Assembly: GCA_000341795.1 (NCBI GenBank)
Contig: AODO01000030.1
Coordinates: 1 to 64,000 of the forward strand
Length of the DNA stretch: 64,000 nucleotides
Reading direction: 5' to 3'
Source: Rhodococcus triatomae BKS 15-14
GTDB lineage: Bacteria > Actinomycetota > Actinomycetes > Mycobacteriales > Mycobacteriaceae
Shown here: piece after piece, positions 13,916 through 32,128 of the stretch
How positions within the stretch are numbered: position 1 is the stretch's first letter
Layout of the letters: the number at the start of each line of letters is the position of its first letter
Program-made: the position numbers and the translations under genes
The notes under the pieces: model-generated
What the model was told of the DNA's origin: nothing
Seen by the model: the letters and a program-made list of their open reading frames with translations, nothing else
The model's database searches: none

Positions 13916-13988
13916 TAGCCCCGACGGGATTCGAACCCGCGCTACCGCCTTGAGAGGGCGGCGTCCTAGGCCGCTAGACGACGGGGCC
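13916..13988 (-). tRNA. tRNA-Glu (CTC), copy 2 of tandem pair
   Basis: A 73-nt cloverleaf: acceptor stem GGCCCCG pairs with CGGGGCT, the anticodon loop CTCTCAA is closed by CCGCC/GGCGG and reads CTC, and the T-arm has GGTTCGAATCC. CCA is not encoded. Identical to the copy at 14058-14130. Confidence 0.97.
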
Positions 13989-14057
13989 AGGACGTGATCG
14001 GTGACGGCCGGCTCGCGCCCGACACGCTCGATCACAGAAGTGGCACGCTCTCCGTGG

Positions 14058-14130
14058 TAGCCCCGACGGGATTCGAACCCGCGCTACCGCCTTGAGAGGG
14101 CGGCGTCCTAGGCCGCTAGACGACGGGGCC
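14058..14130 (-). tRNA. tRNA-Glu (CTC), copy 1 of tandem pair
   Basis: Identical in sequence to the tRNA at 13916-13988 and separated from it by 69 bp. It lies between gltX and the second copy on the same strand, so gltX, tRNA-Gln and both tRNA-Glu genes could be read in one direction, although the gltX terminator at 14372 would break that transcript. Confidence 0.97.
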
Positions 14131-14209
14131 AGGGAACGTGCCGTGTACTGCATGGCAATCCGGTTTGATCTGCGGCGACGTGTCGTCCGCGAACTTCACC
14201 GGATTTCCG

Positions 14210-14281
14210 CTGGGGTACCAGGACTCGAACCTAGAATGGCTGAACCAGAATCAGCTGTGTTGCCAATTACACCATACCCCA
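14210..14281 (-). tRNA. tRNA-Gln (CTG)
   Basis: A 72-nt cloverleaf: acceptor TGGGGTA pairs with TACCCCA, anticodon loop TTCTGGT within GCTGA/TCAGC reads CTG, and the T-arm has GGTTCGAGTCC. It starts with U1-A72, the weak pair typical of tRNA-Gln. The gatCAB genes in this window indicate that it is first charged with Glu and then amidated. Confidence 0.97.
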
Positions 14282-23997: not shown

Positions 23998-25683
23998 TCA
24001 GCGATTCTCGAATGCCTGGACCGCGGTGTGCAGCGTCGGATAGAAGTGGTCGCTCCCGAACCTCTCCCCCAGCCCGAGCCGCTGCAACTTGTCCTTGACC
24101 GGATCCTTCATCTCCGCGAACACGAGCTCGATTCCGTTGCCGGACAGGTACTGATCGAGCTCGACGAGCTCGTCCATCGCGGTCGTGTCCATCCCGGTCA
24201 TCGGCTCGGCCGCGATGATCACCCACCGCACGGGGTCGGGAGGACGGGTGACGACCCGGCGGACGTAGTCGTCGAAGATGGCCCCGTTCGCGAAGAACAG
24301 CTGCGCGTCGAACCTGATGATCACCAGCCCCGGAATCCGTCGACCCGTCGGATTGCGTTTGATGTCGTGGTAACCGTCTATCCCGGGCACGACGACCAGC
24401 TCGGTGCGGTACGGCCGCCACGCGTGCACCACGACCGCGACGAACGAGAGTGCGATCGCGACGACGATCCCCTCCAGTACGCCGACCAACGCGACGCCGA
24501 GGAACGCAGCGACAGCGAGTGCCGTCTCGACGCGGCTCATCGTCCACATGTGCACGATGCTGCGGATGTCGACGAGCGACGTCGCCGCGACGATCACGAC
24601 CGCGGCGAGAGCCGCCTCCGGGAGGTAGCCGGTGAGTCCGGGCGCGACGAGGATGAACGCGACGATCAGCAACGCGCCGACGACGCCCGTCAACTGCGTT
24701 TTCGCGCCGTTCTGTTCGGCAACCGGCGTCCGGGACGAACTCGCCGACATCGGGAACCCGCCGAGGATGCCGCTGGCGACGTTGGCGGTGCCGATCGCCC
24801 GCATCTCCTGGCTGCCGTCGACGGATTCGCCTCGGCGGGCGGCGAACGTCCGCGACAGCACGCCGGTGTCGGCGAACGCGACCAGAGCGATACCCGCTGC
24901 CGGTCCGATCAACTCGGCGACGTCCGACCACTGCAGACCGCCCAACGCCGGGGCGGGCAGTCCCTGCGGGAGGGCCCCGACCATCGGGATGTCGTCGTCG
25001 AGGCCGAGCAGGTAGGCGACGGCGATGGCGCCGAAGACGGCGACGAGAACGCCGGGGATTCTGCTGTGGAAGAGCTTGAACACGAGAATCACGACGATGC
25101 CGCCGACGCCGATCGCCGCGGCGGTGGGGTCGATCGCTCCGTCGAAGATCGCGGACACCGTCGCCCGTATCTCGTCGACGAGGTTCACCCCGTCGACCGA
25201 GAACCCCAGCAGTTTCGGGATCTGGCTGACGACCACGACGAGGGCGATGCCGTTGAGGTAGCCGAGGCGGATCGGTTTGGACAGCAGGTCGGTGACGAAG
25301 CCGAGTCGGAGGATGCCACCGAGGACCAGGATGGCGCCCATCAGGATCGCGAGCAGTCCGGCGAGGGCCACGGCGCGCTCCGGGTCGCCCGCCGCGAGCG
25401 GGAGGACGGCCGCTCCGATGATCGGCGCGAGTGAGGAGTCGGGGCCGAGGACCAGGATCTTCGACGGCCCCACGAGCGCGTAGACGAGGAGCGGGACGAT
25501 GGTCGCGTACAGACCGGTCTCGGGCGGCAGCCCCGCCGCCTGCGCGTAGCCCATCCCGGCGGGGATCAGCAGCGCGGTGAGCGCGATGCCCGCGGTGATG
25601 TCGGTCCGCAGCCACGACCGCTGGTAGGTTTTCGCGATCTCCACGCCGGGCAGCCACGACCGCATCAATGACTCACGTCTCAT
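23998..25683 (-). CDS. SulP-family anion transporter with STAS domain
   Basis: A 561-residue membrane protein that imports sulfate, bicarbonate or another anion. The SulP core (about residues 25-420) begins ITAGIALTALLIPAGMGYAQ and includes GPSKILVLGPDSSLAP and FPMSASSSRTPVAEQNGAKT. A cytoplasmic STAS domain (about 445-555) follows, with MTGMDTTAMDELVEL at the place of the phosphorylation loop. Substrate is unproven. It begins only 24 bp after a 21-bp perfect hairpin that ends the ilv operon, so its promoter must be compressed into that space or it relies on read-through. It has no counterpart at this place in M. tuberculosis. Confidence 0.92.
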   Translation of the reverse strand: MRRESLMRSWLPGVEIAKTYQRSWLRTDITAGIALTALLIPAGMGYAQAAGLPPETGLYATIVPLLVYALVGPSKILVLGPDSSLAPIIGAAVLPLAAGDPERAVALAGLLAILMGAILVLGGILRLGFVTDLLSKPIRLGYLNGIALVVVVSQIPKLLGFSVDGVNLVDEIRATVSAIFDGAIDPTAAAIGVGGIVVILVFKLFHSRIPGVLVAVFGAIAVAYLLGLDDDIPMVGALPQGLPAPALGGLQWSDVAELIGPAAGIALVAFADTGVLSRTFAARRGESVDGSQEMRAIGTANVASGILGGFPMSASSSRTPVAEQNGAKTQLTGVVGALLIVAFILVAPGLTGYLPEAALAAVVIVAATSLVDIRSIVHMWTMSRVETALAVAAFLGVALVGVLEGIVVAIALSFVAVVVHAWRPYRTELVVVPGIDGYHDIKRNPTGRRIPGLVIIRFDAQLFFANGAIFDDYVRRVVTRPPDPVRWVIIAAEPMTGMDTTAMDELVELDQYLSGNGIELVFAEMKDPVKDKLQRLGLGERFGSDHFYPTLHTAVQAFENR

Positions 25684-25833: not shown

Positions 25834-27399
<1,566 letters not shown>

Positions 27400-27403
<4 letters not shown>

Positions 27404-29319
27404 TTGGTGTCCTCCGTAGTCGTGGCGGCGGCCTGCTCGCGCTCCATGGCCTCGTGGATGACGGCGGGCTCGTCCGCCGCCTCGTCCTCGTCGAACAGCG
27501 GACGGATGCCACGCGCGGCCATGATCTCGTCGTTGCTGGTGCCGGCGGCGACCATCGGCCACACCTGCGCGTCCTTGCCGACGATGAAGTCGATGACGAC
27601 CGGGCGGTCGTTGATCGACTGCGCCTCGCGGATCGCGGCCTCGACGTCCTCTTCCCGCTCGACGCGGATCGCATGGCAGCCGAGGGCCTCGCCGAGCTTG
27701 ACGAAGTCGGGAATGCGCACGGCGCCGTGGGTGCCGAGGTTGGTGTTGGAGTAGCGCTCGTCGTAGAAGAGCGTCTGCCACTGGCGGACCATGCCGAGGT
27801 TGCCGTTGTTGATCAGGGCGACCTTGATCGGCACACCCTCGACCGCGCAGGTCGCCAGCTCCTGGTTCGTCATCTGGAAGCAGCCGTCGCCGTCGATGGC
27901 CCACACTTCCTTCTCCGGCGCACCCATCTTGGCGCCCATCGCGGCGGGCACCGCGTAGCCCATGGTGCCGAGCCCGCCGGAGTTGAGCCACGTGCGCGGC
28001 TTCTCGTACTTGACGAACTGCGCCGCCCACATCTGGTGCTGGCCCACACCCGCGCAGTACACGGCGTCGGGGCCGGCGAGCCTGCCGACCGCCTCGATGA
28101 CGAACTCGGGCGACAGCGCGCCGTCGGACGGCTTGCCGTACGCCAGCGGGTAGGTCGTGCGCAGGCCGTTCAGGTACTCCCACCACGCGGTCAGGTCCAT
28201 CGTGGTGCCGGTGGCCTTGTCCGCGCGGATCGCCTCGATCAGTTCGACGATCACCTCACGGCAGTCGCCGACGATCGGCACGTCCGCGTACCGGTTCTTG
28301 CCGATCTCGGCGGGGTCGATGTCGGCGTGGATCACCTTCGCGTCGGGCGCGAAGGAGTCGAGCTGACCGGTGACCCGGTCGTCGAAGCGGGCGCCGAGCG
28401 TGATGAGCAGGTCCGACTTCTGCAGCGCTGCCACGGCCGCGACGGAACCGTGCATGCCGGGCATGCCGCAGTGCAACCGGTGGCTGTCCGGGAACGCACC
28501 GCGGGCCATCAGCGTGGTGACCACGGGGATGCCGGTCAGCTCGGCGAGCTCGAGCAGCTCCGCCGACGCCTCGGCCTTGATCACGCCACCGCCGACGTAG
28601 AACACCGGGGACGTGGACTCGGCGATGAGCCGCGCCGCCTCGCGAACCTGCTTGCCGTGCGGCTTGGAGACCGGACGATATCCGGGCAGGCGCATCTCCG
28701 GCGGCCACGAGAACGTGGTCTGCGCCTGCAGGACGTCCTTCGGGATGTCGACCAGGACGGCACCCGGGCGACCCGAGGACGCCAGGTAGAACGCCTCCGC
28801 CATGATCCGCGGGATGTCGATCCCGTCGGTGATGAGGAAGTTGTGCTTGGTGATCGGCATGGTGATGCCGGAGATGTCCGCTTCCTGGAAGGCGTCCGTG
28901 CCGATCAGCCCACGGCCGACCTGCCCGGTGATCGCAACCACGGGAACCGAGTCCATCTGCGCGTCCGCGAGCGGGGTCACCAGGTTGGTGGCGCCGGGAC
29001 CGGATGTGGCCATGCACACACCGACCTTGCCGGTGGCCTGGGCGTAGCCGGTCGCGGCGTGACCCGCGCCCTGCTCGTGGCGGACGAGAACGTGCCGCAC
29101 CTTGGTGGAGTCGAAGAGTGGGTCGTAGACGGGAAGAACCGCGCCGCCCGGAATGCCGAACACGGTGTCCACCTCGAGCTCCTCGAGGGCGCGGACCACG
29201 GACTGGGCGCCGGTTACCCGCTCGGGGGCGACCTGGCGTCGGGGGGTGGCGGCCGTGGGACCGGGCTGAGCCCCGGTCTTGCGCGGCGTGGGCTGCGGCC
29301 GTGCGGTTGGTGCGCTCAC
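27400..29319 (-). CDS. ilvB: Acetolactate synthase large subunit
   Basis: TDP-dependent condensation of two pyruvates, or pyruvate plus 2-oxobutyrate; committed step for valine, isoleucine and leucine. The 639-residue protein has an N-terminal extension ([16 protein letters not shown]), the catalytic Glu in [17 protein letters not shown], the central FAD-binding region, and the TDP motif [16 protein letters not shown] with [11 protein letters not shown]. The GTG at 29319 follows AGAGGA. Transcription starts about 165 nt upstream and passes a leader peptide and an intrinsic terminator (29365-29400), so attenuation by branched-chain amino acids is likely. Confidence 0.97.
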
Positions 29320-29364
29320 TGGTGATTCCTCTGGTGTTGACGTTTCTGACTGCGTCCGGGCAAC

Positions 29365-29400
29365 AAAAAACCCCCGCCAGCAAGGTCTGCTGTGCGAGGG
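29365..29400 (-). promoter_or_regulatory. Attenuator terminator upstream of ilvB
   Basis: On the ilvB transcript, 29400-29371 folds into a stem of about 12 bp with one bulged A (CCCTCGC, CAGCA with TGCTG, GCGGGGG) and is followed by six U (29370-29365). It is a complete intrinsic terminator inside an untranslated leader, 46 nt before the ilvB start. Confidence 0.88.
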
Positions 29401-29437
29401 TGGCGCGTCGTGCTGTGCGAGTTGACAAAGAATCGAC

Positions 29438-29485
29438 TCAGGCGACGACGCGCCTGCCGATTACGAGCAACTCATTCTGCTTCAC
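29438..29485 (-). CDS. ilvL: Leader peptide of ilvBNC attenuator
   Basis: A 15-codon frame from GTG (29485) to TGA (29438): [15 protein letters not shown]. Six of its codons (Leu Leu Val Ile, then Val Val) are for the amino acids that the operon makes. The GTG is 7 nt after a TACCTT -10 box, so the peptide would be translated from a leaderless mRNA. The RRVV part of the frame pairs with a segment just downstream (10-bp GGCGCGTCGT with ACGACGCGCC), an arrangement in which ribosome stalling would change the folding of the later terminator at 29365-29400. Too short for homology, but frame, content and position agree with known ilvB leader peptides of Actinobacteria. Confidence 0.82.
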
Positions 29486-29492
29486 GCGATCG

Positions 29493-29522
29493 AAGGTAGG
29501 CGCGTCAAGGGTGAACAGTCAA
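29493..29522 (-). promoter_or_regulatory. Promoter of the ilvBNC operon
   Basis: Minus strand: TTGACT (29522-29517), 18-bp spacer, TACCTT (29498-29493). The transcript start falls at the GTG of the leader peptide (29485). Confidence 0.75.
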
Positions 29523-29582
29523 CTTTCGTGAGCCCACTGTCCCAGAATGTGAGAGCGCCGGCTGCAATGCGAGGATGGTGGT

Positions 29583-30098
29583 GTGTCATCCCCATCGCAG
29601 CCCGTGCCACCGCCTCCATCCTCCCACACCGACGAACCGTCCCCGCAGACCATCCAGATCTCCAGCCTCGGCCTGCTCGGAGTACTGCTCCTGGCGTTCG
29701 GTCTGAGCTTCGTGATCTTCGCCAGCCCGCCCTGGGTCTCGGTGCTGTGGATCGTCCCGATCGGGGTCGCCTACTGGATGCTGCGGGTGCGCACCGTCGT
29801 GGACACCCGAGGCCTCCACGTACGCCGCGTGTTCGGCAGCGAGGTGATCGCCTGGGACGAGATCGAGGGCTTCCGCTTCCCCAAGCGGGCCGGATGGGCC
29901 CGCGCCCGGCTCACCGACGGCAGCGAGAAGTCCCTCCCGGTCGTCACTTTCGAGAAGCTCCCCCTGATCGCGGCGGCGAGCGGCGGACGCGTGACGGATC
30001 CGTACGCACTCTCCGCCCGGATCGAGCGGGAGCGCCGTGAACAGGAACGGGCCGAGGCCGACGCCGATCAGCGCGACTCGGATCAGAGCCCCGAGTAA
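29583..30098 (+). CDS. Cfp6-like membrane protein with bacterial PH domain
   Basis: A 171-residue protein: proline-rich N-terminus, two transmembrane segments (about residues 29-65, LGLLGVLLLAFGLSFVIF and VSVLWIVPIGVAYWML), then a bacterial PH-like domain (VVDTRGLHVRRVFGSEVIAWDEIEGF). It ends in a charged tail (ARIERERREQERAEADAD). This is the Cfp6/Rv3004 family of unknown role. It starts with GTG at 29583 and is divergent from ilvB, in the place Rv3004 occupies next to ilvB1. Confidence 0.88.
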   Translation: MSSPSQPVPPPPSSHTDEPSPQTIQISSLGLLGVLLLAFGLSFVIFASPPWVSVLWIVPIGVAYWMLRVRTVVDTRGLHVRRVFGSEVIAWDEIEGFRFPKRAGWARARLTDGSEKSLPVVTFEKLPLIAAASGGRVTDPYALSARIERERREQERAEADADQRDSDQSPE

Positions 30099-30106
30099 CA
30101 CGCGAG

Positions 30107-30112
30107 TACCGT
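30107..30112 (+). promoter_or_regulatory. Possible -10 box for ilvD
   Basis: TACCGT between the Cfp6-like gene and ilvD. It would give a leader of roughly 165 nt with GC-rich inverted repeats (30137-30145 with 30155-30163; CGGGGTC/GACCCCG at 30163-30177). No -35 match and no branched-chain-rich leader peptide are visible. Confidence 0.4.
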
Positions 30113-30286
30113 TGAGGCAATTCCCGACGACGGTCGGGCGGTCGGTCGGCTCTGCCGGCCGCCGGGGTCGGACCCCGCACGATCGCCCGAAACAGCCCCG
30201 TCTGCCGGGTCCCCCGATTCACAGCGCACCCCGCCGACCCCAGCCCACCGGTCCGGCGGAGGCGCCCCGAGGAGTGAAGGACGCCC

Positions 30287-32128
30287 ATGCCCCCGCTGAG
30301 GTCACGCACCACCACCGTCGGACGCAACGCCGCCGGAGCCCGCTCGCTGTGGCGAGCCACCGGCATGACGGACTCCGACTTCGGCAAGCCGATCGTCGCG
30401 ATCGCGAACTCGTACACGCAGTTCGTCCCCGGGCACGTCCACCTCAAGAACGTCGGCGACATCGTCGCCGACGCGGTCCGCGCCGCCGGCGGCGTCCCGC
30501 GCGAGTTCCACACGATCGCCGTCGACGACGGCATCGCCATGGGACACGGCGGCATGCTCTACTCGCTGCCGAGCCGCGAGATCATCGCCGACTCCGTCGA
30601 ATACATGGTCAACGCGCACACCGCCGACGCGCTGGTCTGCATCTCCAACTGCGACAAGATCACTCCCGGCATGCTCAATGCCGCGATGCGGCTCAACATC
30701 CCGACGGTGTTCGTCTCCGGCGGACCGATGGAGGCGGGCAAGGCCGTCGTCGTCGGCGGTGTCGCACAGGCGCCCACCGACCTGATCACGGCGATCTCCG
30801 CGTCCGCCAACGACTCGGTCTCCGACGAGGGCCTCGACGAGGTCGAGCGCAGTGCCTGCCCGACGTGTGGATCCTGCTCCGGCATGTTCACCGCGAACTC
30901 GATGAACTGCCTCACCGAGGCGCTCGGACTGTCGCTGCCCGGCAACGGCTCCACGCTCGCCACCCACGAGGCCCGCCGCGCCCTGTTCAGCAGGGCGGGC
31001 ACCACGGTCGTCGAGGCCGCGCTGCGCTGGTACCGCGACGAGGACGAGTCGGTCCTTCCGCGGAACATCGCCTCTCCCAAGGCGTTCGAGAACGCGATGG
31101 CCCTCGACGTGGCGATGGGCGGGTCCACCAACACGGTGCTGCACACCCTCGCCGCGGCACAGGAAGGCGAGGTCGACTTCGACCTGACCACCATCGACGC
31201 GATCAGCCGCCGGGTGCCGTGTCTGTCCAAGGTCTCCCCCAACTCGGACTACCACATGGAGGACGTGCACCGCGCCGGCGGCATCCCCGCGATCCTCGGC
31301 GAACTGCGCCGCGCCGGGCTGCTGCACACCGACGTGTCCACGGTTCACACCGCGAACTTCGACGAATGGCTCGACACCTGGGACATCCGCTCCGGCAAGG
31401 CCTCCGACGAGGCGGTCGAACTGTTCCACGCGGCCCCCGGCGGCGTCCGCACGACCGAGCCGTTCTCCACGAACAACCGCTGGAGCGCTCTCGACACCGA
31501 CGCCGCAGGCGGATGCATCCGTGACATCGAACACGCCTACACCGTCGAGGGCGGCCTGTGTGTCCTGCGCGGCAACATCGCCGTCGACGGCGCGATCCTC
31601 AAGACCGCGGGCATCGACGAGGACCTCTTCTCCTTCGAGGGACCGGCAGTGGTCGTCGAGTCACAGGAGGAGGCGGTCTCGGTGATCCTGCAGAAGCAGA
31701 TCAAGCCGGGCGACGTGATCGTGGTCCGCTACGAGGGCCCGAAGGGCGGCCCGGGAATGCAGGAGATGCTGCACCCGACCGCCTTCCTCAAGGGCGCCGG
31801 GCTCGGCAAGGTGTGTGCGCTGATCACGGACGGCCGCTTCTCGGGCGGCACGTCGGGTCTGTCGATCGGGCACATCTCGCCCGAGGCCGCCGCCGGCGGC
31901 GTGATCGGTCTGGTCGAGAACGGTGACCGGATCCGCATCGACGTCGCCACCCGCGCGCTCGAGGTGCTGGTCGACGACGAGGTGCTCGCCGAGCGCCGCG
32001 CCAAGATGGAGGCCCGCGAGCGTCCGTGGCAGCCGGTCGACCGCCAGCGCACCGTCACCACCGCGCTGCGCGCCTACGCCGCCCTCGCAACCTCCGCCGA
32101 CAAGGGTGCCGTCCGGCACGTGCCGTGA
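30287..32128 (+). CDS. ilvD: Dihydroxy-acid dehydratase
   Basis: Fe-S enzyme that dehydrates the dihydroxy acids to the 2-oxo acids of valine and isoleucine. The 613-residue protein has the cluster cysteines in [15 protein letters not shown] and [19 protein letters not shown], and the C-terminal [21 protein letters not shown]. Type II DHADs of Actinobacteria of this kind often carry [2Fe-2S]. ATG at 30287 with AAGGA upstream. It is encoded apart from ilvBNC, behind its own structured leader, and ends at the hairpin at 32134. Confidence 0.96.

Follow-up and report, generated by a model that had tools for sequence, protein, structure and literature searches.

The ilvBNC operon of Rhodococcus triatomae BKS 15-14 is preceded by a short frame with Leu, Val and Ile codons and by a hairpin followed by a run of T, which raises the question of whether this leader is a transcription attenuator and, if so, which of its parts would do the switching. 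We analysed a stretch of 64,000 nucleotides around the locus, hereafter called the window, and compared the leader with those of relatives. In the window the operon is encoded by three genes, supported by their profile scores:

27400..29319, minus strand: ilvB, acetolactate synthase large subunit (NF005860, 1157.6 bits, cut-off 881)
26900..27403, minus strand: ilvN, acetolactate synthase small subunit, 5' end approximate (TIGR00119, 200.8 bits, cut-off 56.9)
25834..26853, minus strand: ilvC, ketol-acid reductoisomerase, 5' end approximate (TIGR00465, 408.9 bits, cut-off 226.15)

Among the matches returned, the closest named IlvB was that of Rhodococcus zopfii (87% identity in the best segment). 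A frame of 171 codons and ilvD (dihydroxy-acid dehydratase) lie divergently upstream of ilvBNC (29583-32128, plus strand). Three consecutive tRNA genes occupy 13916-14281 on the minus strand.

Anatomy of the ilvBNC leader

Read 5' to 3' on the minus strand from 29553 to 29319, the region holds a palindromic box, a promoter, a leader frame, a pairing (H2), a terminator (T), a likely Shine-Dalgarno motif and the ilvB start. A further helix (H1) is predicted over the control codons. The features are:

29540..29553, minus strand: box CTCACATTCTGGGA, -68 to -55 from the leader start codon, resembling an NdgR/LtbR (IclR family) operator
29517..29522, minus strand: -35 hexamer TTGACT, with an 18-nt spacer to the -10 hexamer
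29493..29498, minus strand: -10 hexamer TACCTT, 7 nt before the GTG at 29485
at or adjoining 29485, minus strand: predicted transcript start, from the promoter position
29438..29485, minus strand: leader-peptide frame with GTG start, 15 residues and TGA stop, control codons TTG CTC GTA ATC
29431..29462, minus strand: H1, predicted anti-antiterminator, covering the control codons in an untranslated frame (60-nt fold and partner-swap test)
29445..29454, minus strand: H2 5' arm GGCGCGTCGT, within the R-R-V-V codons, predicted antiterminator (complementarity, fold and swap test)
29402..29411, minus strand: H2 3' arm ACGACGCGCC, separated by one A from the terminator core
29371..29400, minus strand: T, intrinsic terminator hairpin of 7+5 bp
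29365..29370, minus strand: terminator U-run, TTTTTT (from the sequence)
29327..29332, minus strand: AGAGGA, likely the Shine-Dalgarno motif of ilvB (by eye)

The arms GGCGCGTCGT and ACGACGCGCC form a perfect 10-bp complement, and the T stem consists of CCCTCGC, a bulged A and CAGCA against TGCTG and GCGGGGG, with an extra A-U pair with the T-run possible. The sequence-only reading had described a promoter TTGACT-18-TACCTT before a GTG frame, a 15-residue frame with Leu Leu Val Ile codons, and a 12-bp hairpin with six U before ilvB. All three were found, at 29522-29493 with the GTG at 29485, at 29485-29438 and, with the bulged A within the stem, at 29400-29365. The leader anatomy before ilvBNC, composed of promoter, GTG frame, H2 pairing and intrinsic terminator, is confirmed. 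Three short frames of the window (8-35 codons, ATG or GTG start) have a TTGAC 35-38 nt upstream, and the ilvB leader is the only Leu/Val/Ile-rich frame among them. The H2/T junction GACGCGCCACCCTCG has a single zero-mismatch occurrence in its own genome. When the window was searched with Rfam, tRNAs alone reached the gathering score, and 29200-29600 was empty at E values up to 1.

Proposed mechanism

We consider it highly probable that this leader controls ilvBNC by ribosome-mediated transcription attenuation, in which T is the terminator, H2 acts as the antiterminator and H1 as the anti-antiterminator. The analysis shows the conserved anatomy, the promoter spacing, the coevolution of H1 and H2, the recurrence of GUA and the modelled availability of H2 on which this proposal is based, and from these we infer the transcript start, the ribosome stalling and the antitermination by H2 in the window. 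RNA polymerase would start at or adjoining the leader GTG, giving a leaderless 5' end at which ribosomes would enter. As long as the tRNAs for CUC-GUA-AUC are amply charged, the ribosome would reach the stop codon and cover the H2 5' arm GGCGCGUCGU, T would form, and transcription would end after about 121 nt. In an untranslated frame, H1 would fold over both the control codons and the H2 5' arm, so that the default would also be termination. When charged Leu-, Val- or Ile-tRNA is short, a ribosome stalled on the control codons would open H1 and free the H2 arm, H2 would form, and the polymerase would read through into ilvBNC.

Distribution of the leader in relatives

The region was matched in six of six genomes of the genus, its own genome counted. 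The family sample consisted of 121 genomes from 31 genera, drawn evenly from the larger family; the query (window 28700-29200) was in a non-IlvB frame, and its matches still landed on ilvB, with the leaders adjoining. The leader was present in 112 of these 121 genomes (111 of them detected by script and one, G097, from a typed string), and the element was complete through the U-run in 107. It was recognised by eye in four more (G007, G012, G041 and G113), and the sequence of G094 stops at a contig end. No leader was seen in G037, G073 and G088, and the leader frame of G026 is broken, which counts against the attenuator reading. In G026 (L127), inspection by eye still shows a terminator and a long stem of the H2 type, GCCCGTCCAACATC/GATGTTGGACGGGC. 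G073 (L197) and G037 (L201), small genomes, carry a palindrome like TCCACTATGTGGAC between -35 and -10 (by eye), as if repression had replaced attenuation.

A named set of 80 actinobacterial ilvB loci was also compared; the leader set took in 58 of them, and in 55 the element was complete and within the allowed length. The leader set comprised 170 loci (112 family and 58 named), and the helix analysis covered 157 of them (106 of the 112 family and 51 of the 58 named loci). The partner-swap set held 155 elements (138 unique), and folding at defined ribosome positions was carried out for the 150 elements with an in-frame GTA (106 family, 44 named).

The window has a Leu/Val/Ile-codon frame upstream of ilvB, a terminator with a U-run between this frame and ilvB, and a covarying H2 pairing that depends on ribosome position, the latter referring to pairing in the model and not to an effect on termination. 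These are features of the actinobacterial ilvB leader-peptide attenuator, and the ilvBNC leader of the window is a Rhodococcus-like member of this kind, already known in related bacteria. The original proposal of a leader-peptide attenuator on a predicted leaderless transcript is supported by the comparison (112/121 leaders, promoter spacing in 125/159 and the partner swaps).

Comparison with known attenuators

The H1/H2/T plan was put forward, and tested in part, for C. glutamicum (PMC11857589), where attenuation was examined with leader-codon, start-codon and terminator mutants, and for Corynebacterium at large (PMC10272879). Further literature used in this analysis is PMC4046766, PMC4340878 and PMC8222616. 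The Corynebacterium attenuator (IlvL; ilvB-II motif) shares with the window a leader rich in branched-chain amino acid (BCAA) codons, a conserved GUA, the H1/H2/T plan and an ilvBNC operon, and its leader begins at, or one nucleotide from, the transcript start, as is predicted for the window (PMC11857589, PMC10272879, PMC5784534). Its leader sequence MTIIRLVVVTARRLP differs from that of the window, and its H2 and T are reported to share GCC (PMC11857589), whereas H2 and T are flush in the window.

The Streptomyces loci have the CUC-GUA core, the GCGCGUC arm and the terminator in common with the window, and their leader is two residues shorter. The Streptomyces ilvL lies before ilvBHC (MRTRILVLGKRVG) and is described as leaderless in S. 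lividans (PMC8079986). Contrary to what an attenuator in the window would lead one to expect, codon changes in the S. coelicolor ilvB leader are quoted as having no effect on regulation (PMC1262725), and a C. ulcerans reporter assayed in Bacillus subtilis is likewise reported to have been unaffected by the change of one Val codon.

The M. tuberculosis ilvB1 leader, studied with reporters, resembles the window in its uORF with LVVI control codons and its predicted terminator and antiterminator, with the end of the U-tract at +126 (PMC13236596). Complete mycobacterial elements also occur in the present comparison, and in two Mycolicibacterium loci H2 reaches 2-3 nt into the T core, unlike in the window. 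The leaderless polycysteine attenuators of mycobacteria, in which a short frame reportedly responds to an amino acid, differ in responding to cysteine and in the genes concerned, going by the title of Canestrari 2020.

GUA as the control codon

The codon GTA is in frame in 150 of the 157 elements, and CTC GTA in 139. It makes up 184 of the 216 Val codons in the BCAA runs of the leaders, as against 2 of 207 in a reference set of four window genes, namely ilvB, ilvC, ilvD and the frame at 23998-25683. Because a codon this rare is near-invariant in the leader runs, these counts point to the GUA-reading tRNA as the most likely sensor. GUA has also been singled out for C. glutamicum (PMC11857589) and M. 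tuberculosis (PMC13236596).

Conservation and coevolution of H1 and H2

In H1 the control codons are paired to a segment 3' of the stop (e.g., GTAATCGGC/GCCGGTTGT, GTACTCGG/CCGAGTAC and GTAGTAGAC/GTCTGCTGT). H2 joins the R-R-V-V codons to the sequence that precedes the terminator (e.g., GGCGCGTCGT/ACGACGCGCC and AGCGCACCGTCG/CGACGGTGCGCT), its arms co-varying between elements (GCGCGTTGGTG/CACCAACGCGC and GACGCGTG/CACGCGTC). In the swap test, the 5' arm of one element was scored against the 3' region of another in 100 swaps, and for both helices the own partners scored higher than all 100 swaps, in the 89 unique family elements and in the 138 unique elements overall. The mean H1 score was 13.47 for own against 12.15 for swapped partners in the family and 11.22 against 9.73 in all elements; for H2 these values were 23.74 against 22.30 and 22.13 against 19.48. 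Most arms are nearly invariant, which keeps the margins modest, and since the swaps ignore the tree, relatedness accounts for part of the excess. The H1 helix was not found in 15 of the 138 unique elements.

In some elements the frame is ended by a TAG at, or a few bases before, the H2 5' arm (L048, L051, L054, L073, L074, L075, L090, L095, G012 (L198) and G041 (L200)), so that the stop codon rather than the sense codons would fix the last ribosome position. The H2 pairing is kept in N_L048, N_L051, N_L054 (only 6 bp), N_L074, N_L075, N_L090 and N_L095, whose frames stop before the arm, and likewise, by eye, in G012 and G041; N_L073, with an early stop as well, lies outside the helix analysis. 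We considered that R-R-V might be conserved as a peptide signal and rejected this, because the early-stop frames still keep the pairing, which identifies H2 as an RNA signal rather than a peptide signal.

The 11-nt segment CTCGCACAGCA does occur twice (29421-29411 and 29398-29388), as the sequence-only reading had noted, and a repeat of this length was reached by 1 of 5000 mononucleotide shuffles of the spacer. The two alternative partners for the terminator arm that had been deduced from it did not hold up, as the exact repeat is found in 1 of the 157 elements, namely the window. Among five congeners, the nearest (G003) has a longest exact match of 6 nt, and inspection by eye shows the 11-nt repeat there with a single mismatch; for each of the remaining four the longest exact match is 4 nt. 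The repeat was rejected as a switch. For both copies the pairing partner would be the same, namely the 3' arm beside the U-run, so that the second hairpin would probably be terminator-like and not an antiterminator. N_L090 contains an unrelated 10-nt repeat.

The junction between H2 and the terminator

For the folding models, the RNA was taken as covered by the ribosome to 12 nt beyond the first base of the A-site codon. In the family, H2 of at least 6 bp appeared in the minimum-energy fold of 96 of 106 elements with the ribosome at the codon before GUA, of 67 at GUA and of none at the stop; for the named loci the respective numbers were 41, 35 and 0 of 44. T was complete at the same three positions in 88, 88 and 86 of the 106 family elements and in 36, 37 and 38 of the 44 named ones, and in the window its probability was 1.00 at every modelled position. 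In these models it is H2 that changes with the ribosome position, and T does not. Because T is predicted to be formed at every position in most elements and in the window, the fold yields no base-pair switch, which counts against the attenuator reading. RNA energies by themselves cannot show the switch.

The distance between H2 and T, measured with T allowed to extend into the U-run, was 0 in 73 of the 106 family elements, -1 in 22, +1 in 8, and -3, -2 and 9 in one each; among 51 named elements it was 0 in 32, -1 in one and between -5 and 17 in the other 18. H2 is therefore flush with T, or one base into it, in 128 of the 157 elements (95/106 family, 33/51 named), and 104 of the 106 family elements have at most one base common to both. 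The distance to the GC core is -1 to 2 in 142 of the 157, against about 20% by random placement, an excess that common ancestry explains in part. Where a spacer of 1-3 nt separates H2 from this core (107 elements), it consists of A only in 96, that is, of bases able to pair with the U-run. The pairing of the RRVV codons with the stretch downstream, as originally proposed, exists as a 10-bp, coevolving helix, but in this lineage it does not exclude T by base pairing. Exclusion of H2 and T by shared bases, which is part of the C. glutamicum model and not of the family as described by Seliverstov et al., was not found in the window, where both fold together.

Because H2 lies flush with T and shares at most one base with it in 104 of the 106 family elements, antitermination by H2 is here more likely steric or kinetic than a matter of base competition. 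It is conceivable, and we advance it only tentatively, that a formed H2 ending flush at the base of T could not follow that base into the RNA exit channel and would so keep it from closing there. If true, this would be a switch by position and not by competition for bases, and would differ in this from the classical scheme of 2:3 versus 3:4 pairing. Alternatively, the effect may be kinetic or may depend on a small GG:CC extension. In a limited search of the open-access literature we found no mention of a flush H2/T junction or of antitermination by an adjacent hairpin, which is not meant as a claim of absence.

The GG:CC extension leads to the strongest competing explanation, in which the attenuator is the same and H2 takes bases of the T stem through two GG:CC pairs beyond a small internal loop. 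This extension is present in the 105-nt fold of the window, and elsewhere there are elements in which H2 does encroach on T: H2 and T share the boundary GCC in C. glutamicum (PMC11857589), the Corynebacterium-type G007, folded as a check on the method, forms H2 with GUA in the A site while T is shortened by the loss of basal pairs, and H2 reaches 2-3 nt into the T core in the two Mycolicibacterium loci (N_L041 and N_L043). In N_L041, T had a probability of 0.17-0.21 without a ribosome and of at least 0.98 with a stalled ribosome modelled. Against this explanation, a ribosome stalled on CUC or GUA would cover the GG of the window (codon 10, 29458-29457), and the probability of T remains 1.00, the second Corynebacterium-type element (G113) showed no shortening of T in the same fold check, and the family elements, as given above, hardly overlap. 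Base competition by H2 remains a serious minority reading, to which we give roughly one chance in three.

A putative regulator box upstream of the promoter

The palindromic box fits the published NdgR/LtbR consensus at 14 of 15 positions (by eye). A strict pattern of the box, written after viewing the sequences, occurs upstream in 77 of the 170 leader loci (e.g., L038 and L052), starting at -64 to -68 in 74 of them, and in 0 of 1986 control stretches. The box is centred some 61 nt before the start codon of the leader, a position that would suit an activator. A second layer of ilvBNC control through this NdgR/LtbR-like box is therefore likely, judging by its sequence and placement.

One may go further and suppose that such a regulator dominates the control of ilvBNC, with leader and terminator mattering little. 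The conserved box at its fixed position would agree with this, as would the reported binding of NdgR to the ilvB promoter in S. coelicolor and the leader codon changes without effect in the same species (quoted in PMC1262725). The leader, H1, H2 and T are, however, strongly conserved and coevolving, and the C. glutamicum mutants support attenuation (PMC11857589), so that we regard the dominance of the regulator as improbable.

A predicted leaderless transcript

When start codons were picked without regard to the promoter, as the start nearest the BCAA run, a TTGAC was found 35-38 nt before the start codon in 125 of 159 leader calls. Among the remaining 34, 20 were GTG-ATG tandem starts with the GTG at the expected distance. 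As a control, 8 of 245 TTGAC distances (12-100 nt) to other start codons of the same loci fell within 35-38 nt. The 159 calls include five false picks (G097, G022, G096, N_L106 and N_L110); in the leader set, an alternative start was chosen for G022 and G096, G097 entered by its typed string, and N_L106 and N_L110 were left out. In promoters the distance from the -10 hexamer to the start has a usual value, and together with the TTGAC spacing this would place the transcript start on the start codon.

Promoter spacing and conservation thus support the prediction that the ilvB leader transcript of the window is leaderless. Published transcript ends point the same way: for C. diphtheriae the mapped start led to the ilvB leader being called leaderless (PMC5784534), S. 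lividans ilvL is described so from RNA-seq (PMC8079986), and in C. glutamicum the transcript start is one nucleotide off the start codon (PMC11857589). A transcript starting away from the GTG, with a 5' UTR, could draw on a second TTGAC nearer the gene (29508-29504), but it is very improbable given that no Shine-Dalgarno motif was seen upstream of the leader GTG on inspection of the sequence, that the spacing from TTGAC to the start codon is kept across the sampled loci, that the regulator box stands at a fixed distance from the start codon, and that leaderless starts have been mapped in relatives (PMC8079986, PMC5784534).

Conclusion

The leaderless leader peptide had at first been taken for an uncommon twist. 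From the TTGAC spacing across loci and the published transcript ends, the leaderless layout is instead the rule for the ilvB leader element, was already known, and is no oddity in the Actinobacteria phylum. The comparison points to a single kind of attenuator, predicted to be leaderless and with the rare GUA as its control codon, across many of the sampled Actinobacteria. In most of the elements analysed, H2 and T touch and have at most one base in common, which the accepted mechanism leaves unexplained.
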